A stretch of 47,867 nucleotides of DNA from Olivibacter sitiensis DSM 17696 (lineage in GTDB: Bacteria > Bacteroidota > Bacteroidia > Sphingobacteriales > Sphingobacteriaceae): assembly GCF_000427965.1 (NCBI RefSeq), contig NZ_ATZA01000046.1:1-47867 (forward strand), in the 5' to 3' direction. Positions 3,610-47,867 of the stretch are shown piece after piece. A program made the translations under genes and the position numbers. Each line of letters begins with the position of its first letter. Position 1 is the stretch's first letter. The notes under the pieces are model-generated. The model was not told where the DNA came from. It made no database searches and worked only from the letters and a program-made list of their open reading frames with translations.

Positions 3610-4011
3610 TTAATTTTCAGTCGGATTTTCTTCACAGCCTGTCTCGGGTGGACAAAGGTAGTTCCTATTCTCATAAGAGAAAGACTTAGCCTCGTTTACA
3701 TAATCTTTATGCCCGCTGCCATCTTTCACGGTTGCAACATGTACTAAGGTGGTATATCCTTCATATTTTGGGTTGTCCAGTTCATCCATGTTTTCCTTGG
3801 TGTATTTTGCTAGGTAAAAACGCACGCCATCTATGCCCAGTTCATCTTTGTGCTTGTTTAGTTTTTCAACAAGTGCTGTTAAGTGCTCTAGGCTGAACCA
3901 TATTCCCCTTGTATTCGATCCGCCGTTTGCATGTCTTGCATCAGATTTAGTAAATGCGGCCCTCATTTTTTTTGCTTTCTCCAGCGAAATGGATGTTTTT
4001 GAATCTTTCAT
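3610..4011 (-). CDS. Conserved hypothetical protein, first gene of the two-component operon
   Basis: This 133-residue soluble protein has no signal peptide. It resembles a family of Bacteroidota hypothetical proteins with a GIWFSLEHL segment and a GVRFYLAKY strand followed by TTLVHVAT. No catalytic motif is evident. It begins the operon that continues with the membrane protein, kinase and regulator. The divergent gene upstream encodes a stand-alone LuxR-type protein. Its role is unknown; a cytoplasmic input or output factor of this signalling system is one possibility. Confidence 0.75.
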   Translation of the reverse strand: MKDSKTSISLEKAKKMRAAFTKSDARHANGGSNTRGIWFSLEHLTALVEKLNKHKDELGIDGVRFYLAKYTKENMDELDNPKYEGYTTLVHVATVKDGSGHKDYVNEAKSFSYENRNYLCPPETGCEENPTEN

Positions 4012-4082
4012 GTCCGTTTAATTTTAAGTTTTTGATTGGGTTAAAAATCAGCATTTTATATCGTTGATGCAATGAGTAAATC

Positions 4083-4123
4083 ACCCTTTTTGACTACCGT
4101 AAAAATACCCTGGCAAAAAGGGT
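4083..4123. promoter_or_regulatory. 10-bp inverted repeat between the divergent signalling genes
   Basis: ACCCTTTTTG (4083-4092) and CAAAAAGGGT (4114-4123) are perfect inverted arms 21 bases apart, in the 176-base gap between two divergent genes. Neither arm is next to a gene end, so a terminator is unlikely. It is a candidate operator for one of the two LuxR-type proteins. Confidence 0.4.
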
Positions 4124-4156
4124 AAATTGAAGTGTTAATTAATGTTAAGGAGTATG

Positions 4157-4164
4157 TAGGTTTG
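4157..4164 (+). promoter_or_regulatory. -7 box upstream of the LuxR-type gene
   Basis: TAGGTTTG matches TAnnTTTG exactly and lies 23 bases before the ATG at 4188. No good -33 TTTG is present at the usual distance, so activation by a regulator bound at the upstream inverted repeat is plausible. Confidence 0.4.
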
Positions 4165-4187
4165 AATTCAAGAAATTATTCAAAGCT

Positions 4188-4418
4188 ATGACAGTGAAGA
4201 TTAATCGAGACGAAAATCAGCAGCTGATTAGTCGTCGGGAAACTGAAATTGTACGTATGATGTCTTTAGGCTATAATAGCAGGCAGATAGGAAAAATGTT
4301 GTTCATTAGTGAGCAAACGGTACAAACTCATAGAAGAAATGTCATTAAACGTTTGGGTTTACGCAATTCAAACCATTTAATTGCATGGGCATTTCAGGTA
4401 AACATGTTGTCTTTTTGA
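4188..4418 (+). CDS. Stand-alone LuxR-type DNA-binding protein
   Basis: This 76-residue protein consists almost entirely of a LuxR/GerE helix-turn-helix: SRRETEIVRMM, GYNSRQIGKMLFISEQTVQTH and RRNVIKRLGL. There is no receiver or other sensory domain. It is transcribed away from the four-gene kinase operon, whose own response regulator carries the same kind of DNA-binding domain. It could compete with or assist that regulator at shared sites. The short length appears natural: the ATG is followed immediately by the domain, and the stop follows the last helix. Confidence 0.85.
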   Translation: MTVKINRDENQQLISRRETEIVRMMSLGYNSRQIGKMLFISEQTVQTHRRNVIKRLGLRNSNHLIAWAFQVNMLSF

Positions 4419-4625
4419 CTTAAATGTTTAGGGTTTTCCGCAATCCACCCCAATCTCCATAGGTATTGATAAGAAATTGTCGTTTTTTCTTTGGAAATAA
4501 CCACTCACCTCTTGTATGTAACAAAAAATTGACATAAATTTGGTTTTCAATCAACCGAACGTTATGTGCAATATGATTGGCTACATGGGGATGAGTTTAA
4601 GATATTGCCCTTTCTTTGTGCGTTT

Positions 4626-4652
4626 CTTGGGCAAAAGGTACTTTTGCCCAAG
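4626..4652. repeat. Perfect 12-bp palindromic hairpin
   Basis: CTTGGGCAAAAG (4626-4637) and CTTTTGCCCAAG (4641-4652) pair perfectly around GTA. It lies just after the stop of the minus-strand peptidase gene but has no adjacent T-run on either strand. It looks more like a dispersed intergenic palindrome than a standard terminator, although it may still stop or protect the transcript. The rest of 4419-4674 shows no gene. Confidence 0.55.
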
Positions 4653-4674
4653 AGCAAACAAGGAAAATTTCTGT

Positions 4675-6324
4675 TTATTTCCTTAACTGTTCTCCAATAG
4701 ACTTAAACTCCGAGCCTTTTTTCCACTTAGGATAGTCCTTCTCCATACTCAACGTATAGCCCACATCGAACAATAACTTTAGATCCTCTACAATCCCATC
4801 AATGTTCCATTTGCTCGCTACGTATTCGTCCTGCGGCTGATGATAGCGTTGCTTATTGTATTCTTTTTTTAACTGAATGCCATAAACACTCTCTTGCCCA
4901 ATAACCTGGTCGCCCGTGGCCGGATATAGCGCGGGTATACCTACCTTGGCAAAGTTGAAATGGTCAGATCTATAAAACCAGCCATTGGAGGCGTCTGCCT
5001 GAGGCACGATGTGCCGTCCTTGTTTTTTTGCCGCCCGTTCTGCGTATTCATCCATTTCCGATTGTCCCAGACCCACGATAACAATATCATTTGTTTTGCC
5101 AATGGGCTGCATGGCATCCATATTGATGTTTGCCACGGTTTTTTCCAATGGGAATATGGGATGAGCGGCATAATATGCGGAGCCTAATAACCCTTCTTCT
5201 TCACCTGTGAGCGCTATAAACAATATGCTACGCTTTGGGGATGTTGGCGCTTTCTTAAAAGCATTTGCCAGTTCGAGCAAGCCTGCAATGCCCGTACCAT
5301 TGTCTACGGCACCGTTGTATATGGAATCGCCTTCAACAGGTTCTCCCACGCCGAAGTGATCCCAATGGGCCGAATAGACGATCACCTCCTCTGGTCTTTC
5401 ACTGCCCTTGAGTAGCCCGAGCACATTGTTCGATGTTGATTTTTTTAGTTCCTGCTGTATATGTACGGATGTGCTTGTTTGTAGATCGACCGCCTTAAAT
5501 CCCGGTTTTTTTGCTTGTTCCAGTAAATCGATACTTTGCCCTGCTACCTGGAGCAGCTTTGCGGCCGTCTCGCCACTGATCCATCCTTCAAAGGCGGCCC
5601 TGTCCGCTCCATTGTTTTCTGTTTGCAGGTTGAGCTGCGGGCCGCTCCAGCCATTGCGCACCACATGCCACCCATAGCTGGCAGCGTCTTCCTGGTGAAT
5701 GATGAGGGCACCCGTGGCGCCTTGTCTTGCCGCCTCCTCGAATTTGTATGTCCAGCGACCATAATAGGTCATGTTCTTGCCCTTGAATAGGGTGGGATCG
5801 TAAAATCCGGGATCGTTGATCATCACCACAACCGTCTTCCCCTTTACATCTAGTCCGTCGTAATCATTCCAATTATATTCTGGCGCAACAATGCCAAAAC
5901 CGGCGAACACCAAGTCCGTATTGGTTACATCGACCTTTTCCTGTACCCTTCTGCTGCCCAGTACGATATCATCCAAAAGGTGGCTGGCCAACTTCCCGTT
6001 CTTTCCATTAAACGTAATCTCTTGTTGGGGATACGAGGTGATTTCCACCATAGGCACTTCCTGCCTATAGCTATCGCCATTGCCAGGGGCAAGCCCCAAT
6101 TCTTTGAATGTACGTTCCAGATAGTTTATGGTACGGACTTCTCCTTCCGTAAAAGGTTTGCGCCCCAATAGGGAGTCATTGGCAATAACAGCCATGTAGT
6201 GGTCAAATCCCTCTTCCGTAATGCTACTGGCCGCTTCGGAGATTTGTTTATCGGGGCTGCTTTGGCAAGCCGTGCCAATTATTGATAGGGCAAGGCACAG
6301 ATGTTTTATCTTGTTCACTGTCAT
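4675..6324 (-). CDS. M28-family zinc aminopeptidase lipoprotein with PA domain
   Basis: From the ATG at 6324 the protein has 549 residues. The first residues form a lipoprotein signal ending in IIGTAC, so it should be exported and lipidated; an in-frame upstream ATG (6366) would bury this signal. A protease-associated domain occupies roughly 120-260. The M28 domain follows, with zinc and catalytic residues in AHWDHFG, GAVDNGTG, GEEEGLLG, NMDAMQ and SDHFNF. It probably trims peptides in the periplasm or at the cell surface. It stands alone, divergent from parC. Confidence 0.9.
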   Translation of the reverse strand: MTVNKIKHLCLALSIIGTACQSSPDKQISEAASSITEEGFDHYMAVIANDSLLGRKPFTEGEVRTINYLERTFKELGLAPGNGDSYRQEVPMVEITSYPQQEITFNGKNGKLASHLLDDIVLGSRRVQEKVDVTNTDLVFAGFGIVAPEYNWNDYDGLDVKGKTVVVMINDPGFYDPTLFKGKNMTYYGRWTYKFEEAARQGATGALIIHQEDAASYGWHVVRNGWSGPQLNLQTENNGADRAAFEGWISGETAAKLLQVAGQSIDLLEQAKKPGFKAVDLQTSTSVHIQQELKKSTSNNVLGLLKGSERPEEVIVYSAHWDHFGVGEPVEGDSIYNGAVDNGTGIAGLLELANAFKKAPTSPKRSILFIALTGEEEGLLGSAYYAAHPIFPLEKTVANINMDAMQPIGKTNDIVIVGLGQSEMDEYAERAAKKQGRHIVPQADASNGWFYRSDHFNFAKVGIPALYPATGDQVIGQESVYGIQLKKEYNKQRYHQPQDEYVASKWNIDGIVEDLKLLFDVGYTLSMEKDYPKWKKGSEFKSIGEQLRK

Positions 6325-35946: not shown

Positions 35947-38900
35947 ATGAAGCTTTTTACAAGCGTCAGGGGGCATCTTTGTGCCTTTTTTCAGACATCA
36001 GACAAAAGACACCAGACGTCAGACTACCTGACAGCGCCATATATAAAGCAACCGGCCTTTGGCCTCTTGCACCATTTAAACCGTGCTTTGCAATGTAGAG
36101 ACGTAAGATCTTACGTCTCTACATGCTACTTAACACTGCTAGCAGTACGGGCGAAAGATTTTTCGCCCCTAATCTCGGCCTTTGGCCTTATTACCTTCTT
36201 GTTTGTGTGTCCCTGCGCCTTGCTGGCGCAGCAGTCCGAGCCATCCCGAGTACTCGGGGTGGTCACCTCGGCTGCCGATGGCAGCCCGCTGGCAGGTGTG
36301 GCCATCAGGGTAAAGGGGACAAGCAGCGGCGTACTGACCGATAAGGAGGGGAGGTTCACCATTGTCCCCACCCGAGCGACAGGTACCTTTACCATTACCT
36401 ATCTTGGCTACAAAAGCAAGGAGGCGCCATTTGACCTTGCCAGCGGCGAGCCAATCCATATCGCGCTCGACCCGCAGGACAACACCCTCGACGAGACGGT
36501 GGTGATAGGCTACGGCACCACCACGCGCAGGCTCAATACAGGCAGCGTGGCCACGGTGAGCGCCGCCGAGATAGAAACGCAGCCCGTGACCAATGTGCTG
36601 ACGGCCCTTTCGGGCAGGGCAGCAGGTGTACAGGTGCAAACGGTGAACGGACTGCCGGGTGGCAACGTAAGTGTCCGCATCAGGGGAGCCGCCTCCATTG
36701 CGGCAGGCACGGAACCGCTCTACATCATAGACGGTGTGCCATTCAACTCCAGTCCCGTCACCACCTCGCTGGCCAACCAGACGGGGGCGCAGGGCAACGT
36801 AAGCCCGCTCAACAGCCTCAATCCGGCCGATATAGCGCGCATAGAGATACTGAAGGACGCCGACGCCACGGCCATCTACGGATCGCGCGGCTCCAACGGC
36901 GTCATCATCATCACCACGAAAAAAGGCGACGCTACGGCCGGCAAGCTGAACATAAACTACTACGGCGGATGGAGCGAGGTGAGCCGCATGGCCAGCTACC
37001 TGGGGCTGGAAGATTACCTGGCCCTGCGCCGCGAGGCATTCGCCAATGACGGCGTGCAGCCCTCGGCCGATCCCACCTCGCGGCAGTATGCCCCGGATCT
37101 GCTCGTATGGGATACCACAAGGGGCATCGACTGGCAAAGGGAATTTATAGGCGGCAAGGCCGGCATGCACCAGCTGCAGGCCTCCTATCAGGGCGGTACG
37201 GCCACCACGGGCATCCTGCTCAGCGGCAATTACCGCCGCGAGGGCAGCGTGTTCCCCGGCGATTTTAGCTATACAAAGGGCGGGGGAATGCTCTCCGTAA
37301 ACCACCGGCCCGAAGGCGATAGGCTGGACCTAGGGCTATCGGTCAGTTACCTGGCCGACGGCAACGGCCTGCCCAAGGTAATCCCATCGCTCAACCTGCC
37401 GCCCAACTATCCCCTGTACGACGAAAGCGGCAACCTCAACTGGTACAGTTCAAACCCGCTGGGCGTATTGCGGCAAACGAACAATACCAATACGCACAAC
37501 CTGGTCACCAATGCCAATATCGGCTATAGGATAAACGACGATCTGACCATAAAGCTCACTGGCGGCTATACCAACTACCGGCTGGGCACGGTGAACCTCA
37601 CGCCCAGGGCATCCCTATCGCCCACCTCCACCAGCGGCAACATGAGCAACTTCGGCAATAGCACCACGCAGACGCTCACCGTAGACCCGCAGGTCAACTA
37701 CCGCTACCAAACCGGCGCCAACCGGTTCGACCTGCTGCTGGGCGCCAGCTACCAGCACATCAGGCAGGAGGGCCGTTTCATCACGGCTACCAACTATGCC
37801 AACGAGACGCTGATGGAGACTTTGGCAGGGGCGGGCAGCATCAGCGGCACCGATAGGCACGAGCCGTACAAGTATGTCTCCCTGTTCTCCAGGCTCACCT
37901 ACAACCTGGCCGACAGATACATCGTCAACGCCAGCTTCCGCCGGGACGGCTCCTCGCGCTTCGGGCCGGGCAGCCGCTTCGGCAACTTCGGCGCCGTGGG
38001 CGCCGCATGGCTGTTTACCGAGGAGAAGTGGCTGGCGCCCATCAGGGGGCTGCTCCACTTTGGCAAGCTGCGCATGAGCTACGGCATCACGGGCAACGAC
38101 AACATAGGCAATTACCGCTACCTATCTGCTTATACGGCATCTACCGTGTACAACGGTGCAGCCTCGCTCGCGCCCTATCAGATAGCCAACGATGCCTTTC
38201 GCTGGGAAACCAATAGGAAGCTGGAACTGGCATTGGAATTGGGACTCTGGCAAGATCGCCTTTCGCTGACCGCCGCACGCTATCGCAACCGCACGGACAA
38301 CATGCTGGTCACCTATCCGCTACCGGCACAGACCGGCTTCACGGGATATCAGGCCAATTTTCCTGCCGAGGTAGAAAACAAGGGCACCGAGCTGAGCCTC
38401 CGTGCCACGGTCATAAAGTCGGACAAGTTCACCTGGGACATTAACTCCAACATCAGCTTTGAATCGAGCAGGCTCAGGAGCTTCCCCAACCTGGAGGCAA
38501 CAAGCTATGCCAGCCAGTACATCGTAGGGGAAAACCTTACCGTATTGCAACGGTTGCGTTTCCTTGGCGTAGACCCGGAGACGGGCATATCCACCTATCT
38601 GGACAAGGATGGGAACGGGCTGTACAACAACCTGGACTATGAGGTGATAGGCAAGACCACGCCCGACTGGTACGGCGGCCTGGGCAATACTTTCCGCGTT
38701 GGTCAATGGCAGGCCATGGCCTTCTTCCAGTTTTCGAAGCAGTTGGCCCCTACATTGGTACTGGCTCCCGGCCCCATGAACAACTACTTTGATATCGTAC
38801 TGGAACGCTGGCAACAGCCGGGCGATATGACCGATATACAGATGGCGACCACGACCAGCGGTACCGAGCAATACAGCGCCCGCTCGCGTCTATCCCAGTC

Positions 38901-39126
38901 GGACGCCATCTGGAAAGATGCCACATACCTCCGGCTCAAGAATGTGTCTCTTTCCTATATATTGCCTGCCAGGTGGCTGTACGGCATGCAGACAAGGGTA
39001 TATGCAGAGGGGCAGAATCTCTGGACCGCTGCAGCCAATGGCCGCTGGCGCTTGGATCCCGAGACGGCCACGAGCGAGATACCGCCATACAGGACATGGG
39101 CCTTTGGCATTTCACTGACACTTTAA
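35947..39126 (+). CDS. SusC-family TonB-linked outer-membrane transporter
   Basis: Reading from ATG 35947 gives 1059 residues. A carboxypeptidase-like domain (about 105-180) with VLGVVTSAADGSPLAGVAIR, a plug with YIIDGVPFN and NPADIARIEILKDADATAIY, and a large barrel form a SusC transporter that imports oligomeric nutrients with the SusD partner encoded next. The signal peptide (FLFVCPCALLAQQ) lies about 80-100 residues in; the preceding region runs through palindromic repeats and is probably not native, and no in-frame ATG is closer. The mature part is high in G+C. Confidence 0.88.
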   Translation: MKLFTSVRGHLCAFFQTSDKRHQTSDYLTAPYIKQPAFGLLHHLNRALQCRDVRSYVSTCYLTLLAVRAKDFSPLISAFGLITFLFVCPCALLAQQSEPSRVLGVVTSAADGSPLAGVAIRVKGTSSGVLTDKEGRFTIVPTRATGTFTITYLGYKSKEAPFDLASGEPIHIALDPQDNTLDETVVIGYGTTTRRLNTGSVATVSAAEIETQPVTNVLTALSGRAAGVQVQTVNGLPGGNVSVRIRGAASIAAGTEPLYIIDGVPFNSSPVTTSLANQTGAQGNVSPLNSLNPADIARIEILKDADATAIYGSRGSNGVIIITTKKGDATAGKLNINYYGGWSEVSRMASYLGLEDYLALRREAFANDGVQPSADPTSRQYAPDLLVWDTTRGIDWQREFIGGKAGMHQLQASYQGGTATTGILLSGNYRREGSVFPGDFSYTKGGGMLSVNHRPEGDRLDLGLSVSYLADGNGLPKVIPSLNLPPNYPLYDESGNLNWYSSNPLGVLRQTNNTNTHNLVTNANIGYRINDDLTIKLTGGYTNYRLGTVNLTPRASLSPTSTSGNMSNFGNSTTQTLTVDPQVNYRYQTGANRFDLLLGASYQHIRQEGRFITATNYANETLMETLAGAGSISGTDRHEPYKYVSLFSRLTYNLADRYIVNASFRRDGSSRFGPGSRFGNFGAVGAAWLFTEEKWLAPIRGLLHFGKLRMSYGITGNDNIGNYRYLSAYTASTVYNGAASLAPYQIANDAFRWETNRKLELALELGLWQDRLSLTAARYRNRTDNMLVTYPLPAQTGFTGYQANFPAEVENKGTELSLRATVIKSDKFTWDINSNISFESSRLRSFPNLEATSYASQYIVGENLTVLQRLRFLGVDPETGISTYLDKDGNGLYNNLDYEVIGKTTPDWYGGLGNTFRVGQWQAMAFFQFSKQLAPTLVLAPGPMNNYFDIVLERWQQPGDMTDIQMATTTSGTEQYSARSRLSQSDAIWKDATYLRLKNVSLSYILPARWLYGMQTRVYAEGQNLWTAAANGRWRLDPETATSEIPPYRTWAFGISLTL
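36094..36123. repeat. GTAGAGACG-type palindrome, copy 2
   Basis: This is a perfect 30-base palindrome with arms TGTAGAGACGTAAGA and TCTTACGTCTCTACA. It keeps the GTAGAGACG/CGTCTCTAC stem of the copy at 34763 but has GTAA/TTAC where that one has GCAA/TTGC. Confidence 0.8.
36149..36168. repeat. GGGCGAAA-type palindrome
   Basis: GGGCGAAA (36149-36156) and TTTCGCCC (36161-36168) pair around four bases. It is a second type of dispersed-looking palindrome inside the predicted SusC 5' region. Confidence 0.6.
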
Positions 39127-39140
39127 GCACACATGACGAC

Positions 39141-40502
39141 ATGAAAAAGCATTACTTACAACTAATAGCCACAGCTGGCCTATTGCTGTGCCTGTCCTGC
39201 GAATCGATGATCGCGATCGAAGATTCCAAGACCCTGATGAGCAGGGATAGGGTACTGGCCAGCGACAGTGCGGCAAACGCGCTTGTATCCAACATATACG
39301 TACAGATAGCCGGAGTAGGGGGCCTGGAGGCCAATTTGGTGCCATACAATGCCTTGTACACCGATGAGGCCTTGCCCTCGCCCAATAACCAAAGCGTCAT
39401 AGACTATTATAACAATGCCTTTACGGCAGACCATATCGGCTTTGTGAACGTGTGGGGCAAGTGCTACCGGGCCATCTACATGGCCAATGAACTGCTCGAA
39501 GGTTTGCCCGGTGCCATGGGGATCTCGGCATCGGCGAGACAACAACTCTTGGGGGAGGCCTACTTCCTGAGGGCATTTTCCTACTTCTACCTCACGCAAC
39601 TGTTCGGTGATGTCCCCTTGGTACTCGTTACTGATCTGGACATTTCGGCAGGCTTGCCAAGGAGCAGCGCGGAAGCGGTGTTCCGGCAAATGGCGAACGA
39701 CCTGGCGGCAAGCAGGGAACTGCTTTCCGTTAGTTATCCCGGCTATTTGCGCACGCGGGCCAATCGTCATACGGCCACGGCCATGCTTGCCCGTATCTAT
39801 CTCTATCGGCAACAATGGGCAGAAGCAGAGGCAGCCGCCTCCGAGGTCATCGATTCCGATATGTATACGCCGCTTAGCTCGCCCGAGCTGACCTTCAGAA
39901 GAGGAAGTACCGAGGCTATACTGCAGGCTCATCAAGTACAGGGCTATGTGAATTATGCCGCTTCATTTGTCCCTGCAGCCGGTATACCGAGTTATATCAT
40001 CTCACCGGATTTACTGGAGGCCTTTGATGAGGCCGACCTGCGCAAACGGGAATGGATAGGGGCCATACAGGTGGCAGGCGTCGATTACCCTTACTTCAAC
40101 AAATATCGGAACAGGGTAACCGCCTCCGGCATTGGGGCAGAGGATGCCATGCTGCTGAGGGTGGCCGAGCAATACCTGATACGGGCGGAGGCCCGAGCCA
40201 TGCAGGACAAGCTGGCATTGGCAGTGGACGATCTGAACAGCTTGCGCCAACGAGCGGGCATCGCGCCCTTGGAAGACCTGGGCAAAGAAGAACTGTTGTC
40301 TGCCATTGTGGAGGAGCGGCAACGGGAACTCTTTGCCGAGTGGGGGCATCGCTTCTTCGATCTCAAACGATGGGGCATCGTAGACGAGGTATTGGGTGTC
40401 AATAAGCATAATTGGAGTCAAGAAGCAATGCTTTACCCCATCCCCAAGTCGGAAATGGAAAAGAATCCGGCCTTGACGCCCAATGCGTCCAATACATACT
40501 AA
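39141..40502 (+). CDS. SusD/RagB-family nutrient-binding lipoprotein
   Basis: From ATG 39141 the protein has 453 residues and a lipoprotein signal ending LCLSCE. It shows the SusD pattern: an N-terminal helix-rich region with RDRVLASDSAANALVSNIYV, ARQQLLGEAYFLRAFSYFYL and YFYLTQLFGDVPLV, and the C-terminal RAEARAMQ, DLNSLRQRAGI and EERQRELFAEWGHRFFDLKR. It caps the SusC transporter at the cell surface. It starts 14 bases after susC. Confidence 0.93.
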   Translation: MKKHYLQLIATAGLLLCLSCESMIAIEDSKTLMSRDRVLASDSAANALVSNIYVQIAGVGGLEANLVPYNALYTDEALPSPNNQSVIDYYNNAFTADHIGFVNVWGKCYRAIYMANELLEGLPGAMGISASARQQLLGEAYFLRAFSYFYLTQLFGDVPLVLVTDLDISAGLPRSSAEAVFRQMANDLAASRELLSVSYPGYLRTRANRHTATAMLARIYLYRQQWAEAEAAASEVIDSDMYTPLSSPELTFRRGSTEAILQAHQVQGYVNYAASFVPAAGIPSYIISPDLLEAFDEADLRKREWIGAIQVAGVDYPYFNKYRNRVTASGIGAEDAMLLRVAEQYLIRAEARAMQDKLALAVDDLNSLRQRAGIAPLEDLGKEELLSAIVEERQRELFAEWGHRFFDLKRWGIVDEVLGVNKHNWSQEAMLYPIPKSEMEKNPALTPNASNTY

Positions 40503-40513
40503 AACTAAGAAGA

Positions 40514-41842
40514 ATGAAAAGATTATTTGCATTATATGTTTTGCTGCTGATGGCCTTATGGTCATCCGCGCAAGTAAAAAAACACGAAAACAGCATCGGC
40601 ATCGGGCAAAAGATTCCCGATGTTCTACTCGAAAACCTATTGAACGGCAAGCTTTCGGGCAGATCCTTGGAAGAGCTTCGTAGAAACAAAATACTGATCA
40701 TTGATTTTTGGGCCACCTGGTGCAAGCCCTGTGTGGAGGCATTGCCGAGGCTCGATAGCCTGCAGCAAGCCTTTGGGGATAAGGTACTGATACTCGCCGT
40801 GAGCCATGAGAGCGAAGCTGTGCTAAGGGGCTTTTTCGAACGGAAAAAGCTCAATCCCTCAATTCCGATACTGTTTTCGGACACTTTGTTCAGTACTTGG
40901 TTTCCGCATAGGCTGTTGCCCCATAGTGTTTGGATAGATAGAGAAGGAATGGTTAGAGTGGAGACTGGGGAGGGCGAAATTAACGGAGAAAACTTCAGAT
41001 TGGCAGTCTCAAATGGTGAATTTCCTAGCCTCAACAAAAATGATGATGTCAGTTTTGAAGCAAATAGTGGATTAAAGATAGATGAAAATACCTTAATCTC
41101 TGTTAATTTTAAAAAGGCTAACTTACATGTGCCGACAATGATTACTATGAGGGATAGTGCTGGAACGAACAGATTAGATACTGTGTTTAGGTATTTTTCT
41201 ACTAATCAGCCAATTCTGAAATTATTCTACTCAGCATTTTCAAATGGCAAATCATTTCCAAATTACAATTTAATTAAATTCGACGATGTCAAGGATTCAA
41301 GTAAGTACTTTCCTCCGAACATTGTTGATAGTTTAAAGGGCAGACTATCAATTGATGATATAAAGGACTGGTATTTGCATAATTCATATTGCTTTGAGTT
41401 ACGGCATGATAAGGGACTTCCAAAGGAGGTTTTCTTTTCGAATATGTTTAGGATATTAAATACCCTTTTTGATGTTGAAGCATCTGTGGAATTTCAGGAT
41501 CAAGATTGCTTTGTGTTGAAATTGGTAGATCCATCGAGAGTTCCTAGGTCAAGTGGCAAAACTCCATATTCATCGTGGACTAACGAGGGGCCAACCTTAC
41601 ATCGATTTCAAGATCAGAGATTTAGCATCCTAGTAGATCAACTTAATACAACTATGTTTAACTTGCCAGTTTATGATGAAACAGGTATAGGCTACCCAAT
41701 AGATATAACATTAAACTTGAATTTTAACGGCAGCCATCATTATGATACGGAATATCTGAAGAGAATTTTTTGGGATTACGGTATCGAAATGGTTAGGGAA
41801 AAACGAAAATTAAAAGTTTTGGTAATCCGAAATAGATGTTGA
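40514..41842 (+). CDS. TlpA-like thioredoxin protein with C-terminal DUF3738-like region
   Basis: From ATG 40514 the protein has 442 residues. A signal peptide ends WSSAQ. A TlpA/AhpC thioredoxin domain (about 25-165) has the active site Cys70-Lys-Pro-Cys73. The C-terminal part (about 330-442; FSILVDQLNTTMFNLPVYDE and TGIGYPIDITLNL) resembles DUF3738. The gene follows susD closely and belongs to that operon. Base composition drops sharply near 40980, suggesting two origins. Redox work in the periplasm is likely; the partner is unknown. Confidence 0.8.
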   Translation: MKRLFALYVLLLMALWSSAQVKKHENSIGIGQKIPDVLLENLLNGKLSGRSLEELRRNKILIIDFWATWCKPCVEALPRLDSLQQAFGDKVLILAVSHESEAVLRGFFERKKLNPSIPILFSDTLFSTWFPHRLLPHSVWIDREGMVRVETGEGEINGENFRLAVSNGEFPSLNKNDDVSFEANSGLKIDENTLISVNFKKANLHVPTMITMRDSAGTNRLDTVFRYFSTNQPILKLFYSAFSNGKSFPNYNLIKFDDVKDSSKYFPPNIVDSLKGRLSIDDIKDWYLHNSYCFELRHDKGLPKEVFFSNMFRILNTLFDVEASVEFQDQDCFVLKLVDPSRVPRSSGKTPYSSWTNEGPTLHRFQDQRFSILVDQLNTTMFNLPVYDETGIGYPIDITLNLNFNGSHHYDTEYLKRIFWDYGIEMVREKRKLKVLVIRNRC

Positions 41843-41898
41843 TCTACTTCAACAGTAAGTTGTATTTACAATGGTTTCAAAAGATGTCTCAGCAAAAC

Positions 41899-41935
41899 AG
41901 AGCGGTGAGAAAACATCAAATTTTCTCACCGCTCT
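41899..41935. terminator. Bidirectional terminator
   Basis: AGAGCGGTGAGAAAA (41899-41913) and TTTTCTCACCGCTCT (41921-41935) form a perfect 15-bp stem with a 7-base loop between converging operons. Confidence 0.85.
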
Positions 41936-41957
41936 CTCTTCAAGGTCTGAGTTGTGT

Positions 41958-42257
41958 CTAAAAAGTTGATCGCTCAATAGTTTCGCCTGGGATAGGATTT
42001 CCCAATGCGTCTTGCGCTTGTGCACAGCTGAAACCTGCTCCTCCACAGCTATAAGTCGCTTCGATTTGAGCTCGGGTCTGATTTTCGACCAAGATATACT
42101 CATTTGTACCTGGGGTTCTGACCTGCCAGTTGTAGGAATCCTCTTGGGCTACCTTTTTGTTGAGCATCATTTTGGCATGTAGTGCTTTTCCAAAGCTGAG
42201 GGTCAATGCCAGGGCCATGCAGCCCGTTCCGATGAATTTAATTGTTTTTGTTCTCAT
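41958..42257 (-). CDS. DUF6520-family secreted peptide/protein
   Basis: This 99-residue protein has a signal peptide (ALALTLSFGKALHA) and a short exported part with YSCGGAGFSCAQAQ holding two cysteines near the end. It fits DUF6520, a small Bacteroidota family of unknown role often found beside MauE/TlpA-type genes. It is last in a minus-strand group with the MauE-like protein. The two cysteines could form a disulfide. Confidence 0.72.
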   Translation of the reverse strand: MRTKTIKFIGTGCMALALTLSFGKALHAKMMLNKKVAQEDSYNWQVRTPGTNEYILVENQTRAQIEATYSCGGAGFSCAQAQDALGNPIPGETIERSTF

Positions 42258-42293
42258 TTTTGATAAATAATAATGGTTTGAAATTTATTGTTT

Positions 42294-42812
42294 TTATGAG
42301 GTTTCCGTGTTGGGGATATGGCGATGTAGCTTTAGGCCGCAATAGGCCAGCAGCATGAGAATGATATTGATAACCAGTTGCCAAGCCCAGGATATGCCGT
42401 TTGCCAATCCGGCGCAGGTGCACGGTAGGGAATAGGGAGACAATAACATGTAAACGATATATATGGAGAAAGTGCCGAATAGTACCAAGCTGGCTAAAAC
42501 GCCCCACCATCTTGTCACATGGTTTACAAAAAGCAGGCTAAGGATAAGCAGGCAGGAAGCGGGAACCGCCCAGGAGATATATTCGGCATAGTCCTTCATC
42601 AAGGGCATGGGCGATAGTTCCATTTGAAAAATGAATTTTTCGTGTTCTATCAACTTGCTTGCTAGGATAAATCCCAAAACGGCAACTAAGGCAACGGTAA
42701 TCAGGTAATAAACGATCAAGCTATTTTTCCTGCTTAGTCTATCGCGCCAGGCATTTTCGCTAACTATCAGATGTACCATGGTTTTCATATCCATCACTAA
42801 TGGGGTTTTCAT
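42294..42812 (-). CDS. MauE/DoxX-family redox-associated membrane protein
   Basis: This 172-residue protein has four membrane helices and the typical SPYSLPCTCAG segment after the third, with two cysteines one residue apart. MauE/DoxX-like proteins help thiol-disulfide exchange across the inner membrane. Several ATGs near the start (42812, 42794, 42788) are possible. It lies 36 bases upstream of the DUF6520 gene and downstream of the AraC gene. Confidence 0.8.
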   Translation of the reverse strand: MKTPLVMDMKTMVHLIVSENAWRDRLSRKNSLIVYYLITVALVAVLGFILASKLIEHEKFIFQMELSPMPLMKDYAEYISWAVPASCLLILSLLFVNHVTRWWGVLASLVLFGTFSIYIVYMLLSPYSLPCTCAGLANGISWAWQLVINIILMLLAYCGLKLHRHIPNTETS

Positions 42813-42878
42813 TCTTTCCTCTCTAGAAAAGCAAAATTAACCCCTGGTTTCCATTTGTGGCATGTCCCTATGTATACT

Positions 42879-43910
42879 CTATATGTCCTTATGTACACGT
42901 TTGGCAGTGGGAGCCTCCGCCATAGTTTGCGCTGCCCTGGGGTACGTGCCGTAGTAGGCATGGAACTGCTTGGCAAAACTGGCATAGTCGCCATAGTGCA
43001 GTCGGATTGCTACCTCCGTGGCGGGCAGCTTTTGCTCCCGTAAGAGGACAAGCGCAAGTTGCATGCGCAGGCCATGTATATAGTCGCGGATGCCCATGTG
43101 TACGTGGCGCTTGAACAACAGGTACAGGCCTTGTCTGCTATAGCCAAAACGCTCGCCCAGTTGTACCGCATTGGGCACTTCGCCGCTGGCTATTTGCTTG
43201 TTGACAAAGGCAGTGATGCGCTTGAAGTGAGGTGGATAGCTTGCTTCTTGTACTTGGGTGCTTGTTCTTGCCTCGTTAAGGTGCCGGTCTATGAGCCGTA
43301 CCAGTGGCTCCTCTACCCCTGTATCCAGGGCCAGGCCCGAGAGGCTCTCCAAGTGCAGGAAATCGTGGATGGCCTTTTCCATTTCCGTGCAAAGTGTATT
43401 GGTATTGCCGCCGATGCACTGTGCCTGCCTACTGATGAGTGCCTCAATTTGCCAACCCAGACCTGTCAGGCTGCCATGGCGGTAGCGCGCCAGCCACGAG
43501 GCCCGCAGTGCAAAGAACAGTAAGCGATGGGTTCCCTTGCCCAGGCGCAGGACATAGGGCGCAGGTGGGCTATAGGGCAGCTGGTATTCACCTGCTGCCA
43601 GTTCCAGCACTGAAGTGCGATTCGGGGTATATACATGGCTCTGGCCCTCCAGCTGGCACAGCATGTATAGGTCATGCGTCTCGCACTGGAAGGGCAGGCT
43701 GATGGGCTTGCCACAGCGCGCCTCTATGTAGCAGGCATACACGCGCTGGGCATCCACGTCCTGCCAAACGAGCTGGAAATCGTGGTGCCTGTAGTGCAGC
43801 ACGCGCTGCATCACTTCCGGCACCTGTGCCACCCAGCCCGGTGGCAGGCCTTCCTCCAGGCGCACCGCCGGGTATGCCTCGGCAATATGTAGGGTGATAG
43901 GGTATCTCAT
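42879..43910 (-). CDS. AraC-family transcriptional regulator
   Basis: This 343-residue protein has a long N-terminal sensing region without a recognisable fold (about 1-230) and a C-terminal double helix-turn-helix (about 240-330: GEVPNAVQLGERFGYSRQGL, GIRDYIHGLRMQLALVLL, ATEVAIRLHYGDYASFAKQF). It probably controls the adjacent redox and small-protein genes. Its inducer is unknown. The base composition is clearly more G+C-rich than the bacteriocin-like genes nearby. Confidence 0.9.
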   Translation of the reverse strand: MRYPITLHIAEAYPAVRLEEGLPPGWVAQVPEVMQRVLHYRHHDFQLVWQDVDAQRVYACYIEARCGKPISLPFQCETHDLYMLCQLEGQSHVYTPNRTSVLELAAGEYQLPYSPPAPYVLRLGKGTHRLLFFALRASWLARYRHGSLTGLGWQIEALISRQAQCIGGNTNTLCTEMEKAIHDFLHLESLSGLALDTGVEEPLVRLIDRHLNEARTSTQVQEASYPPHFKRITAFVNKQIASGEVPNAVQLGERFGYSRQGLYLLFKRHVHMGIRDYIHGLRMQLALVLLREQKLPATEVAIRLHYGDYASFAKQFHAYYGTYPRAAQTMAEAPTAKRVHKDI

Positions 43911-43951
43911 TTATATAGTTGAAAGACTGAAGGCCTAAAACTTGTACCATT

Positions 43952-44009
43952 CTCACAACCCACAACTGACAACTCACAACTGACAACTCACAACTGACAA
44001 CTCACAACT
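43952..44009. repeat. 14-bp tandem repeat (CTGACAACTCACAA)
   Basis: At least three perfect units of CTGACAACTCACAA plus partial units lie just past the stop of the thioredoxin-like gene. The motif CTCACAAC is shared with the repeats around the S23-type cassette at 20.4-20.9 kb. Confidence 0.85.
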
Positions 44010-44016
44010 AAAAAAG

Positions 44017-44535
44017 TCAACGGTCCAAATGCGCCAGTATGGCCTCTATCTTGGTCTGTCCGCTGTACTTCTTTTGTAGCCTGCCATCTGCACCATAGAT
44101 GATGATAGTGGGCGTCGTAGCCGTGCCGAAGTACTGCGAAAAGGTGAAATCCCTGTCCCGTGCCAGCAGGACCTCGGGTAGCAGTACCAAGTCCATCTCC
44201 TCTTGATACTGCTGCAATCGTTCCTCGCGGGCTGGCGATACCAGTAGCAGTTGGCTGCCGGAGAAGCGCTCTATATGCGTTAGTATATCCTTCATCTCTT
44301 CCTCGCAGAAATGACAATCGGGATCCATATAGATGATGCACAGGGGCTTACCCTTGGCCACGTCCTTTTGGCTGATGGAATCGCCTTGGAGGCTATAAAA
44401 AGTGAATTCGGGCAGTTGCTGCATCTGCTGGGTCACTTGTTTTTTCTGTGCCCTGCGCTGCAAGGTGTGGTACAGTAGACTGCCCATGGCGATGGCCAGG
44501 AGTACATAAATCAGAAAGGGTAATGTCTTTTTCAT
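44017..44535 (-). CDS. Membrane-anchored thioredoxin-like protein
   Basis: This 172-residue protein has one N-terminal membrane helix (about 5-22) and a periplasmic thioredoxin fold with Cys74-His-Phe-Cys77 in DPDCHFCEE and the cis-Pro region ATTPTIIIY. C-x-x-C with His inside is typical of disulfide-forming (DsbA-like) rather than reducing enzymes. It sits on the same strand below the bacteriocin-like peptide genes, each of which has two cysteines. A maturation role is plausible but inferred. Confidence 0.82.
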   Translation of the reverse strand: MKKTLPFLIYVLLAIAMGSLLYHTLQRRAQKKQVTQQMQQLPEFTFYSLQGDSISQKDVAKGKPLCIIYMDPDCHFCEEEMKDILTHIERFSGSQLLLVSPAREERLQQYQEEMDLVLLPEVLLARDRDFTFSQYFGTATTPTIIIYGADGRLQKKYSGQTKIEAILAHLDR

Positions 44536-44640
44536 AAAGGTAAATTCATAGTGAATCTTACGTTATCAGTGATAAGTATTAAATATTCCAATGGCAAAAA
44601 CCAATGCGATTGTTAAAACTTAATGCTTATTACTTATAGC

Positions 44641-45291
44641 TTAGTTGAGCGTCACGGTCAAGAACATGACCAATACGATCCAGAAACCCAAGGCGGGCAG
44701 GTACGATTTCACGACCAGCATTAGCGAGCTGTCATAGTCCTTTTGGATGACCTGCTGCAGTCCCCAGGCCAGCACCAGCCAGTAGGCCAGCTCAAAGACG
44801 TTGAGCAATTGGAAGGGATAGATCCAGATGTTGTCCAGGTGCTGCACGTCAAAGAGACTGAGGGCAGAGAGGGGGTAGAAATATTGGATATCTTCCAGGG
44901 CATAGTTTGTCTGCACGAAGCTGAACCAGCATATCTTGATGATAAGGGGGAGCAATAGCAGCAGTTCGGCCAGCAGTACCACTTTGAGTACCTGCCCAAA
45001 TCGTGCCTTGTATCCCGAGAGGTAGACGCCCGTGTACAGCACGGTGGCTATAAGCGCGTATTTGATGGCGGAGAACAGCACCAGTAGGACATAGCTAAGC
45101 CATTGGTATTGCTCTTGCGTGTTCAAGAGATTGTTTATCTGGTCTATGCTCAGCTGTCCGCTCATGCTGTTGTAGTACACCTCTTTGGTGAGCAGTTGCT
45201 GGCTGATGATGTAGGTACACACGGCACTGACGGCAATAAGTACCGTAAAGAGCGTTGTGTTTTTTGTTGTAATTCCTCTGTAATTAGCCAT
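44641..45291 (-). CDS. Multi-pass membrane protein of the peptide locus
   Basis: This 216-residue protein has about five membrane helices (around 13-32, 63-88, 98-120, 160-180 and 192-215). The first loop is polar. I do not recognise a functional motif; relatives may be carelessly annotated as transport permeases. It lies between the thioredoxin-like gene and the small membrane protein, all on the minus strand. It could serve in export or immunity. Confidence 0.65.
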   Translation of the reverse strand: MANYRGITTKNTTLFTVLIAVSAVCTYIISQQLLTKEVYYNSMSGQLSIDQINNLLNTQEQYQWLSYVLLVLFSAIKYALIATVLYTGVYLSGYKARFGQVLKVVLLAELLLLLPLIIKICWFSFVQTNYALEDIQYFYPLSALSLFDVQHLDNIWIYPFQLLNVFELAYWLVLAWGLQQVIQKDYDSSLMLVVKSYLPALGFWIVLVMFLTVTLN

Positions 45292-45318
45292 GATACAAAT
45301 TTTTGAATATCAATCCCT

Positions 45319-45519
45319 TCATTTTTGTTTGCTTCTCTTTTTCTTAATATAGTTGATTATCGTGTCTTTTTGAAATAGTAGAGTCGAACCAATAATAACG
45401 GGCAATATATTAAGAATGATGTTTAGGATTGAATTCGTTGAAAAAATAGGTTTTGAATAGAAAATATATAGCTGCACAGCTAAAAGCAAGATTCCTGCTA
45501 ATATTAAAAAAGATTTCAT
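45319..45519 (-). CDS. Small two-helix membrane protein, immunity-like
   Basis: From ATG 45519 the protein has 66 residues: two membrane helices (about 4-22 and 33-51) and a strongly basic tail (IKKKRSKQK). Upstream in-frame codons would read through the terminator hairpin and are not used. It is placed right after the peptide genes. Such small membrane proteins are typical of bacteriocin immunity, which is inference here. Confidence 0.62.
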   Translation of the reverse strand: MKSFLILAGILLLAVQLYIFYSKPIFSTNSILNIILNILPVIIGSTLLFQKDTIINYIKKKRSKQK

Positions 45520-45538
45520 AAGACATTCGTTTTGTAAG

Positions 45539-45574
45539 AAAAGCCTGCTTTGGAAACATCCACAGCAGGCTTTT
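45539..45574 (-). terminator. Terminator between peptide genes and downstream genes
   Basis: AAAAGCCTGCT (45539-45549) and AGCAGGCTTTT (45564-45574) pair over 11 bp; on the minus strand TTTTCTT follows. Partial termination here would give more peptide than membrane-protein mRNA. Confidence 0.75.
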
Positions 45575-45592
45575 AAAATTATTGGATGGAAA

Positions 45593-45784
45593 TTATGAAG
45601 CACATATCGCTCCAGCTGTTATACTTGCAACATTAAAGGCCCTTGCGACACCTACGGAAAATGAAGCAAAACCAATTACTCCAAAACCTATTATCGTTCC
45701 CCAGCATAGTCCTTCTTTAAACTCTCCCCATTTGTCTCGGCCTCCAACAAGGGCCTCCATTCTTTGAACATCTATTTTTTTCAT
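45593..45784 (-). CDS. Double-glycine-leader bacteriocin-like peptide 1
   Basis: From ATG 45784 the precursor has 63 residues. The leader MKKIDVQRMEALVGG (15 residues, Gly14-Gly15) is followed by a 48-residue core with a charged start (RDKWGEFKEG), then a Gly/Ala/Phe-rich hydrophobic stretch and Cys27 and Cys61, ending CAS. Leader length, Met9-Glu10, GG and the two-Cys layout are shared with two other genes nearby. An upstream ATG exists, but it would spoil the leader. It probably makes an exported antimicrobial or signal peptide. Confidence 0.8.
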   Translation of the reverse strand: MKKIDVQRMEALVGGRDKWGEFKEGLCWGTIIGFGVIGFASFSVGVARAFNVASITAGAICAS

Positions 45785-45822
45785 GACTATTAAATTGTTG
45801 TAATTAATTTTTTTACTGTTCA

Positions 45823-46023
45823 TTAGCTCATGGCGCAACCCAACCCAGTGACTGCACTGAAGTATAATCCTAGTCCTCCCGCAACTGCAAAGCCCAAACC
45901 CCCTGTCGCAATACCTGCGGCCAAGATGATTGCCCCAGACGAGAGTAAAGCGCCTGACGCATTACATAAAGTAACTTTCCCGCCTTCAGCAGATTCCATT
46001 TCCTCCAAAGATAAAGTTCTCAT
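45823..46023 (-). CDS. Double-glycine-leader bacteriocin-like peptide 2
   Basis: This 66-residue precursor has the leader MRTLSLEEMESAEGG (Met9-Glu10, Gly14-Gly15). The 51-residue core begins KVTLC and is rich in Gly, Ala and Leu with several GxxxG spacings, ending GCAMS. Its cysteines are Cys20 and Cys63. It lies 38 bases upstream of peptide 1 and is probably co-transcribed, forming a possible two-peptide bacteriocin. Confidence 0.82.
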   Translation of the reverse strand: MRTLSLEEMESAEGGKVTLCNASGALLSSGAIILAAGIATGGLGFAVAGGLGLYFSAVTGLGCAMS

Positions 46024-46154
46024 TTTTTCATTTTTTTAAAGTTTAACCATTTTGTTGAGTAATTCCCTTTGCGCATTGGGTATAAGTCAAATTTAAGGAG
46101 GTGTTTTTGTTTTTGCTAGACCTACAGGGTATAAATGATACCTTTGGGGTATAA

Positions 46155-46213
46155 GGAAAAGCGAATGCTAAAGTTCGGACGGGTTATGCGACGGCAGACT
46201 TTAGTAAGTCTTT
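46155..46213. repeat. 59-bp tandem repeat, unit 1
   Basis: It begins GGAAAAGCGAATGCTAAAGT and contains inverted CTAAAGT/ACTTTAG arms. Unit 2 follows with a 71-base period and differs at five of 59 positions, four of them in the loop between the arms. Confidence 0.9.
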
Positions 46214-46225
46214 AGGGATATATTT

Positions 46226-46284
46226 GGAAAAGCGAATGCTAAAGTTCGGACGGGTTGCGTGATGGCAGACTTTAGTAATTCTTT
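46226..46284. repeat. 59-bp tandem repeat, unit 2
   Basis: It is 54 of 59 bases identical to unit 1 and ends 23 bases before the rhomboid ATG. The conserved arms and variable loop suggest that the hairpin, not the sequence in the loop, is kept. Confidence 0.9.
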
Positions 46285-46307
46285 CTGAAAAGGTATAAGA
46301 ACGGCTT

Positions 46308-46937
46308 ATGAAACTATTTGACGAATTGTGGGAACTGTGGCTAGGCCTGCCACAGCATCCTGCTACGTTTTTTATTCTACTGCTTATTTTGATCAGTAGC
46401 GTCGTAGGTTTTTATTATCACCCTTGGTACAAGGCCTGTGTATTGCATCCCTATAGCGTGTGGCGGGGCAAAAGACGGTGGACGCTATTGACGATGGGTT
46501 TGGTGCATAATTCGTGGCAGCACTTAATTTTTAACGTGGCGTTTTTGCTTGTTATGAGTGTGGGAATTGAAAAAGAATTTCAAGATTATTATGGTAATAA
46601 ATCGTTGCTTGTCTACTCTCTTCTGTATTTCGTTACGATCTTCTTTGGAGCATTGGGAACAACCTTGATGAACAGAAACAATTTTTTATTTAGTACAACG
46701 GGGTTATCTAGTGCTTATTTTGGAACGATAACCTATTTTTGCCTTCTTAATAGGAATGAAGTAATTTATGATTTTTTTGGTGTTGCGGTAATATATGGTT
46801 GGCAATGTGCATTGGTATTGAGTATTGTTTTGGTTTTTGCATCAAAAATACGCCCCAATGATGACGTAGATCATTGGGGGCATTTTTTCGGTAGTTTGGT
46901 GGCGCTTTTTGTCTGGTTGGGTTTTGGTTTATGGTAG
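46308..46937 (+). CDS. Rhomboid-family intramembrane serine protease
   Basis: This 209-residue protein has six predicted membrane helices. Catalytic features are present: the HNSWQHLIFN segment (His67, His72, Asn76), the serine helix with Gly132-Leu-Ser134-Ser, and the histidine helix DHWGHFFG (His192, with Gly195). Ser134 and His192 would form the dyad. It cleaves membrane-embedded substrates. It is on the plus strand inside the minus-strand peptide cluster, so it may process or respond to its membrane-active peptides, or be unrelated. Confidence 0.85.
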   Translation: MKLFDELWELWLGLPQHPATFFILLLILISSVVGFYYHPWYKACVLHPYSVWRGKRRWTLLTMGLVHNSWQHLIFNVAFLLVMSVGIEKEFQDYYGNKSLLVYSLLYFVTIFFGALGTTLMNRNNFLFSTTGLSSAYFGTITYFCLLNRNEVIYDFFGVAVIYGWQCALVLSIVLVFASKIRPNDDVDHWGHFFGSLVALFVWLGFGLW

Positions 46938-46948
46938 CATGATATTGT

Positions 46949-47110
46949 TTAACTAATGCAGGATGGAGAAAACGTTGCCGTTAGTGCTCCAACAAAAATA
47001 CCAATACCTCCGAACCCGGCACCTATTGCTGCACCAATTATTACCGCATTTAAACAACTTATTTCTCCCCCGTTCAAATTTTCCATTTCATTTTCTTGTA
47101 ACTTTCTCAT
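46949..47110 (-). CDS. Double-glycine-leader bacteriocin-like peptide 3
   Basis: This 53-residue precursor is missed by a 60-codon cutoff. The leader MRKLQENEMENLNGG again has Met9-Glu10 and Gly14-Gly15. The 38-residue core starts EISCLN and continues with a Gly/Ala/Ile-rich stretch and ends SCIS; its cysteines are Cys19 and Cys51. A divergent XRE gene and three palindromes lie upstream. It is separated from peptides 1 and 2 by the rhomboid gene. Confidence 0.8.
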   Translation of the reverse strand: MRKLQENEMENLNGGEISCLNAVIIGAAIGAGFGGIGIFVGALTATFSPSCIS

Positions 47111-47157
47111 GATTTTTCCTATTTTAGCCCTTGCCTAATGATTAATTGTTCCTTTAA

Positions 47158-47201
47158 GGCAAATTTTGCCCAATTTATTAGCTTAAGCTAAACCCTAAGG
47201 G
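47158..47201. promoter_or_regulatory. Three palindromes between peptide 3 and the XRE gene
   Basis: GGCAAATTTTGCC (47158-47170), TTAGCTTAAGCTAA (47178-47191, perfect) and CCCTAAGGG (47193-47201) lie in a row in the divergent gap. They are good operator candidates for the XRE regulator. Confidence 0.5.
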
Positions 47202-47267
47202 TCTAAATGAGGACATAAAAGGTATAATTTAGCCGATATGGGTATGGTTATTTAGAGGGAAAAGCTT

Positions 47268-47615
47268 ATGGAAACACGTGTACCGAGTAACATTGATAAG
47301 GAAATAGGAGAAAGATTCCGTCAGGTTCGCCGTATGAAAGACTTATCTCAGGAAAATATAGCCAACCTGATAGGAATAGCCCAGAAAAACTATTCCAAGC
47401 TGGAAAGAGGAGAGAGCAAGTGGACCATAGATAGGGTATATGAGGTAGCCGAAGCGTTGGGCCTTTCCGTAGTGGATATCCTGCCCAAATCAAAGGCCAG
47501 CACGGGAGCCAATACGGCCGGATTGCCGGAAATATGGGCCAAGCTGAAGACTAAGCTAAACGCGGTATTGGGAATCTATGTACGTCTTCAAACTAAATTA
47601 GACACATTAGGATGA
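47268..47615 (+). CDS. XRE-family regulator of the peptide locus
   Basis: This 115-residue protein has an N-terminal Cro/CI helix-turn-helix (about 12-68: IGERFRQVRRMKDLSQENIA, GIAQKNYSKLERG) and a C-terminal amphipathic helix (about 85-115) that may dimerise the protein. It is divergent from peptide 3, with palindromes in between, so it probably controls that gene and itself. No sensory domain is present. Confidence 0.85.
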   Translation: METRVPSNIDKEIGERFRQVRRMKDLSQENIANLIGIAQKNYSKLERGESKWTIDRVYEVAEALGLSVVDILPKSKASTGANTAGLPEIWAKLKTKLNAVLGIYVRLQTKLDTLG

Positions 47616-47636
47616 AACCTTAAGGAGACTTTCGAG

Positions 47637-47867
47637 TTATAAATTTATTAATTTTTGTTGATTATACAATTGTCTTCTTTTATTCAGAGAATCGATTTTT
47701 ACCTGTTGTCTTTTTTCCAAAATTCTTTCAGATCGTCCACAGTAGACATCTGCAGGTGTTAAGTTTTGCAGCGATTCGTGATAACGTCTGTTGTTATAGT
47801 TGTCCACAAAGTTTCCCAGGGCTTCGATAAGTTCTTCTGGATGGTAAAAGTGGTTTAATTTCACTAC
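47637..47867 (-). mobile_element. 3' end of an IS3-type transposase (cut by window edge)
   Basis: On the minus strand the frame is open at the window end and stops at 47637. The segment ALGNFVDNYNNRRYHESL followed by LTPADVY is typical of the C-terminal integrase core of IS3-family OrfB. The catalytic residues and the other IS end lie outside. It bounds the bacteriocin-like locus on the right. Confidence 0.85.

Follow-up and report, generated by a model that had tools for sequence, protein, structure and literature searches.

The window, which is the whole contig C50 (47,867 bases) of Olivibacter sitiensis DSM 17696, appears to hold two joined peptide systems, namely a class II bacteriocin cassette of the bacteroidetocin type without an exporter and a module composed of genes for a rhomboid protease, the peptide P0003 and an XRE-type regulator; we assign this reading a probability of about 0.6. 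In our reading, P0001 and P0002 encode precursors of the bacteroidetocin type, and the P0003 peptide belongs to a module for signalling or toxin immunity that includes an intramembrane protease. Only a small number of peptide bacteriocins from Bacteroidota have been studied, and the substrate is known for few bacterial rhomboids. A short peptide encoded beside its own rhomboid is a small, testable substrate candidate, and the loci described here provide a signature for finding more two-Cys bacteriocin-like peptides that standard models score below their cut-offs.

Three precursors with double-glycine leaders

P0001 (45593..45784), P0002 (45823..46023) and P0003 (46949..47110), all on the minus strand, encode precursors of 63, 66 and 53 aa, each consisting of a 15-aa double-glycine (GG) leader and a core with two cysteines. 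The open reading frames confirmed what a sequence-only reading of this DNA had described: all three leaders have a basic residue at position 2, Ile or Leu at position 4, Met9-Glu10 and Gly14-Gly15, and the cores, which that reading called dissimilar, are 48, 51 and 38 aa long. Its account of the cysteines was accurate for the C-terminal end, where the last cysteine is the third residue from the end in P0001, the fourth in P0002 and the third in P0003, but placing the first one near the start is loose wording, because it stands at core position 12 in P0001, compared to positions 5 and 4 in P0002 and P0003. The hydrophobic and acidic positions typical of GG leaders of C39-processed peptides are kept in all three, which supports their earlier assignment to double-glycine leaders of the class II type.

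A strict leader pattern, M-[KR]-x2-x4-[ML]-[ED]-x3-GG in ATG-started ORFs of 30-120 aa, which was built after P0001-P0003 had been seen, matched these three and no other ORF of the window, and had no match in 20 Markov-shuffled windows or in 513,489 bases from the regions of 29 relatives around rhomboids without XRE. The common leader pattern of P0001-P0003 is not due to chance. The pattern is narrow: it hit 7 peptides at only 4 of the 19 loci with peptides that were scanned, missed most known relatives and matched no scanned relative of P0003 of form B (described below). None of the three precursors passed a Pfam or NCBIfam cut-off. P0003 scored 20.2 bits with Pfam Bacteriocin_IIc (PF10439, cut-off 27.1) and 16.6 bits with TIGR03949 (cut-off 21.5), P0002 reached 11.1 bits with TIGR03949 and had no PF10439 match, and P0001 matched neither model. 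A structure model of P0003 (two helices, pLDDT 58.9) was set aside as poor, and a disulfide receives no support from structure.

The proposal that the three peptides form one family was not borne out, since P0003 and P0002 have different relatives and P0001 is nearly an orphan. Among 99 other genomes, P0003 had one credible homologue (E 5.1e-7), which lies in a genome of the same family (G005) and has the same neighbour genes, while the remaining matches, with E 0.03-1, were not credible; P0003 was aligned with 14 relatives, and it aligns with the form B peptides. Among 250 other genomes of the family, P0002 had one homologue, in genome G130 (E 2.3e-4), and P0001 had none at E ≤ 0.01. The best relative of P0002, at locus L181 of G074, reaches 48% over 65 aa, and the core of P0001 has weak similarity (24 bits) to a peptide at locus L159 of G130.

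The P0002-P0001 cassette and its relatives

On the minus strand, in the direction of transcription, P0002 and P0001 are followed by a hairpin and by genes for a 66-aa protein, a 216-aa membrane protein and a thioredoxin-like protein, and further along by an AraC-type regulator, a MauE protein and a 99-aa protein. The hairpin (45539..45574, minus strand) lies 3' of P0001, ends with a few T and is formed by inverted repeat I2 with 16-nt arms that are 94% complementary; it is a possible terminator or attenuator ahead of the downstream genes. No Rfam match was found in 40000-47867. The 66-aa protein (45319..45519, minus strand) has two hydrophobic stretches, and from its place and size our guess is that it is a candidate immunity protein; the G130 cassette also has a small membrane protein, which has no sequence similarity to it. 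The 216-aa membrane protein (44641..45291, minus strand), a recurrent partner of the peptides, is modelled with five long helices (pLDDT 94.6) and had neither a Pfam family nor a PDB fold match at E ≤ 0.001. The thiol oxidoreductase (172 aa, 44017..44535, minus strand) is thioredoxin-like (AhpC-TSA/Thioredoxin_2), has a CxxC motif and one N-terminal hydrophobic stretch, and shows 35% to its G130 homologue, which likewise comes after the five-helix gene. Whether the MauE-family membrane protein (42294..42812, minus strand; Pfam MauE 67.3 bits), a counterpart of which also accompanies the module in Mucilaginibacter, belongs to the peptide system is uncertain. Next to the peptide locus, at 35947-41842, a SusC/SusD-type pair precedes the gene of a thioredoxin-like protein.

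Because the gene of a CxxC thioredoxin-like protein follows in the same direction, with two genes between it and P0001, it is plausible that the two cysteines of the cores are joined by a disulfide. That the peptides are instead modified RiPPs, for example with thioether bridges, we consider very improbable: one G130 peptide scores 20.6 bits with a lantibiotic model whose cut-off is 32.95, and a RamC-like kinase adjoins the module in genome G230 and at two of the 15 named loci, but no modification enzyme was found among the 20 window proteins scanned, and the operon contains a thiol oxidoreductase.

In G130, the order is a GG peptide with more than two cysteines, the small membrane protein, a second GG peptide with two cysteines, the five-helix protein, the oxidoreductase and a full C39 exporter. 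A profile of the five-helix protein matched 17 of 345 Bacteroidia genomes, that of the window included, and 19 loci (18 places outside the window and the one in G130) were examined. The oxidoreductase, a full exporter and Cys-bearing GG peptides occur together in five of them (L159, L181, L182, L194 and L195). At L184 these genes are likewise present, and its Cys peptide lacks a clear GG leader; L196 has an exporter and a GG peptide and no oxidoreductase match; and L183, on a short contig, has the oxidoreductase and a GG peptide. Two further loci are of form B. At the other nine (L185-L193), none of the other cassette genes was found with the queries used, and the five-helix protein is therefore not tied to bacteriocins alone. 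At L182:6403-7806, the five-helix protein, the oxidoreductase and the full exporter are accompanied by a row of six GG-leader peptides that contain two to four cysteines.

In relatives that have the whole cassette, cleavage of the leader behind Gly15 and export of the core would fall to the C39 exporter and joining of the two cysteines to the oxidoreductase, and production would depend on the five-helix protein; in the window, the 66-aa protein may confer immunity.

The missing C39 exporter

The co-occurrence with C39 exporters that the sequence-only reading had proposed to look for was found in other Bacteroidota, where relatives with the same leader and cysteine placement adjoin such exporters, but not in the strain itself: no C39 domain (PF03412) was found in the 110 contigs of its genome (5.05 Mb, reported 99.99% complete). 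PF03412 is present in 23 of 29 genomes compared and missing in this one and five others, including G312, which has the module and eight further GG peptides and no C39 match at E ≤ 0.1. A full-exporter query found 51 places in the genome, none of which covers the C39 part, and the window contains no exporter remnant, the one similarity being ATPase-like at 15.0-15.8 kb. Since the AraC gene 3' of the window oxidoreductase stands where G130 has its exporter, the exporter's absence from this position of the cassette is real. Its absence from the whole strain is likely, an assembly gap being the other possibility. With no C39 domain in the genome and no remnant in the window, P0001-P0003 may not leave this strain, and their export from it is doubtful.

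The same facts could describe a decaying relic, in which loss of the exporter and an IS insertion left three orphan peptide genes under no selection. This possibility carries real weight, although we lean against it. In its favour are a genome of high reported completeness in which no C39 domain was found, the IS fragment that abuts the XRE gene, and searches of four same-genus genomes in which neither P0001 nor P0002 turned up. However, the reading frames, leaders and catalytic residues are all intact, G312 likewise combines a module and many GG peptides with no C39 match, and, with an assembly in many contigs and this one ending in an IS, the exporter could be missing from the assembly.

The rhomboid-P0003-XRE module

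On the plus strand of the window, a rhomboid intramembrane serine protease (46308..46937; Pfam Rhomboid 61.5 bits) and an XRE-type HTH regulator (47268..47615; HTH_19/HTH_3) are encoded on either side of P0003, which lies on the minus strand, convergent with the rhomboid gene and divergent from that of XRE. The XRE frame appears to run with its final residues into the end of the IS, as identical terminal letters recur where contig C35 ends, next to the same integrase frame. Two 64-nt direct repeats (D1, 89%, no Rfam match) stand 5' of the rhomboid gene (46150..46284, plus strand), and visual inspection suggests that either copy could form a stem, CTAAAGT...ACTTTAG. In the P0003-XRE interval, the palindromes present near -85 in the window and some relatives were no better operator candidates than shuffles: across 16 sequences, at least 11 of 100 shuffles scored equally well, and for the window 20 of 100 did.

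The frequency of this arrangement was surveyed with tblastn (E ≤ 1e-4) in 53 regions of 9.4-18 kb each (L051-L063 and L094-L133) and the last 7.9 kb of the window. L062 and L063 were left out, having no rhomboid match, which leaves 52 regions, 23 with XRE adjoining the rhomboid and 29 without. C39 was found in 17/23 regions with XRE vs 0/29 without; the six XRE regions with no C39 are the window, L059, L060, L097, L099 and L104. As L051-L061 were partly chosen knowing the peptide, the fairer set is L094-L133, which was taken down a ranked list with a few listed places skipped and three genomes represented twice; here C39 accompanied 10/13 rhomboids with XRE vs 0/27 without (Fisher p 3.4e-7, genome relatedness ignored). 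Between rhomboid and XRE, a GG peptide was present in 18 of the 23 regions and an AG variant in L051, L094 and L130, in total 21/23; the rhomboid adjoining XRE in L130 is a partial match (58 bits). Neither a GG nor an AG peptide was found there in L060 and L104. In a search extended beyond the family, 30 loci from a longer list of places were examined, and an XRE match occurred only in the window and in two Mucilaginibacter.

The module occurs in two forms. In form A (genus g16), the order is XRE, peptide, rhomboid, followed in L051, L094, L095, L121, L122 and L130 by matches to HlyD, a full C39 exporter and TolC; the other form A regions have only part of these, and L097 and L104 none. In form A, the core of the peptide is amphipathic, about 20-24 aa long and free of cysteine, apart from one in L095. 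The form B peptide has a core with two cysteines. A scan of named genomes, which was seeded with the peptide and overlaps the survey in some genomes, yielded 15 form B loci, 12 from Mucilaginibacter and one each from Hufsiella (a member of the Sphingobacteriaceae in the NCBI taxonomy), Daejeonella and a MAG. On all 15 contigs, a P0003-type peptide stands between rhomboid and XRE, and all 15 loci match rhomboid, XRE, the five-helix protein, C39 and the transmembrane region of the exporter; MauE is present in 14/15.

The ATPase query matched at none of the 15 named form B loci. Their C39 proteins (L134-L148, e.g. L134:7494-9011) are 453-505 aa long as first-start frames. Pfam identified Peptidase_C39 in four of four proteins scanned, ABC_membrane in one and an ATPase domain in none, and in two proteins the best NCBIfam exporter model was covered only to positions 430 and 312 of 710. 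C39 proteins that keep the peptidase and show no ATPase raise the question how the cut peptide exits the cell. It is quite improbable that P0003 and XRE form a toxin-antitoxin-like unit on mobile elements with an incidental resemblance in the leader. Mobilisation and primase genes do adjoin the form B module in the two loci scanned for them, and RteC is present in 13/15 named loci, but Cys, His and Asp are kept in the C39 proteins of 15/15.

The strain's own genome has a second module at L059:6437-7833 on contig C35, close to where this contig ends, again with that IS frame. Its peptide starts in the manner of form A and has a Gly-rich end, so that it looks intermediate between the forms, and at 27.3 bits it exceeds the cut-off of Bacteriocin_IIc (27.1). 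A gene with RamC-N and protein kinase domains, which resembles that of a class III lanthipeptide synthetase and gave no match to a cyclase, adjoins the module in G230 (L052:7346-8794) and in two named loci (L143/L144, about 3825-5204). At L099:10817-15526 (genus g16), eight GG-leader peptides with varied cores stand together with HlyD, and no C39 was found in this stretch or in G312 at E ≤ 0.1.

Possible roles of the rhomboid and the module peptide

Ser134 and His192, the putative catalytic residues according to the rhomboid motif, are kept in the window rhomboid and invariant in 10/10 aligned module rhomboids. Neighbouring His/Asn residues are kept as well, one of the neighbouring His in most and not all. 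With this Ser and His in a Rhomboid domain, the window protein has the feature expected of an active protease. In a tree of 58 rhomboids, 30/31 ordinary ones form one supported group. The module rhomboids fall outside it, in two supported groups of 14 and 11 rows, and those of the window and L060 stand on long branches whose position is uncertain; the module rhomboids are not a single group, and L057, a non-module rhomboid from the same genome, also lies outside the ordinary group.

We favour a role in signalling, as a tentative choice held at somewhat less than even odds. XRE would control the divergent P0003 gene, the C39 protein would remove the P0003-type leader, and the membrane-inserting, Gly-rich core would be a signal, toxin or substrate handled in the membrane by the rhomboid. 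Most probably among these, the peptide would be a signal that switches the neighbouring bacteriocin or exporter genes, and the rhomboid would be needed for its maturation or sensing. Counted in favour were the combination of two different peptide cores with one type of protease, the divergent regulator and the precedent of SilX (see below). More speculatively, and in our view unlikely as a whole, the Sphingobacteriaceae may have a new signalling or maturation unit of rhomboid, divergent XRE and GG peptide, with an 'ATPase-less' C39 half-transporter in Mucilaginibacter, leader removal thereby being uncoupled from ATP-driven export, and with the rhomboid finally releasing or sensing the membrane-inserted two-Cys peptide.

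The rhomboid could also be an immunity factor that cuts or binds the membrane-inserting P0003-type bacteriocin in the producer, as reported for CAAX proteases, which confer immunity to some bacteriocins according to the accessible part of PMC9298176. This is about as unlikely as the preceding proposal. The recurrent pairing with the peptide (21/23) and the position of the module rhomboids outside the ordinary group, several on long branches, are consistent with it, as is the rhomboid protease gene named for caseicin operons in the available text of PMC12634818. Against it, the module peptide shifts from a short amphipathic to a two-Cys, Gly-rich core while the rhomboid stays, and deletion of SilX gave no sensitivity (PMC9298176). 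Our literature search, which did not reach most subscription journals, found no publication on a rhomboid-peptide-XRE module; the word rhomboid is absent from the main text of PMC10352776, and a rhomboid serves as species marker in the accessible part of PMC10967575.

Comparison with known systems

The suggestion that the peptides are of an undescribed kind was not supported, because a leader of 15 residues and the layout of four genes are also features of bacteroidetocins (PMC6671954, as far as its accessible text goes): their regions encode a five-TM protein, a peptide with such a leader, a thiol oxidoreductase and a C39 exporter, mutants in the TM protein and the oxidoreductase were attenuated, and neither gene was protective. 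Like the window peptides, bacteroidetocins (proposed class IIf; PMC6671954, PMC8546649, both in part) come from Bacteroidota and have a GG leader, and their mature size is 42-53 aa compared to 38-51 aa here. Common to both is also a cassette with a thiol oxidoreductase, a membrane protein of several helices and, on our side in the relatives only, a C39 exporter; the likeness of the five-helix protein to the bacteroidetocin TM protein EH213_01845 consists of five long helices in a model. In contrast, bacteroidetocins A and B have four core cysteines and not two, and Gly/Ala-rich hydrophobic cores, an additional small membrane protein and a genome in which the exporter was not found set the window apart. 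Rhomboid and XRE are not mentioned in the available portions of these bacteroidetocin accounts.

The NCBIfam microcin model gave 13 and 12.6 bits vs a cut-off of 50, and, unlike at loci of class IIa microcins, no HlyD or TolC match was found in 40001-47867. The leader of P0002 resembles that of colicin V. Class IIa microcins of the colicin V type have in common with the window peptides the GG leader and, if the cores are oxidized, disulfides as sole modification (PMC9746304, in its accessible part). Class IIb peptides such as lactobin A and cerein 7B (PF10439, TIGR03949) are similar in GG leader and hydrophobic Gly/Ala core and differ by the sub-cut-off scores, the two cysteines and the Gram-negative context of the window.

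For the module, a parallel is the Sil locus, as presented in the available text of PMC9298176. It differs in that SilX is a CAAX protease and not a rhomboid, that sensing is by a two-component system and not XRE, and that the host is Gram-positive. SilX is encoded beside a quorum-sensing locus, bacteriocin activity requires it, and a synthetic signal peptide by-passes this requirement; here as there, an intramembrane protease adjoins a peptide system, which in the Sil case governs bacteriocin genes and in the window may do so.
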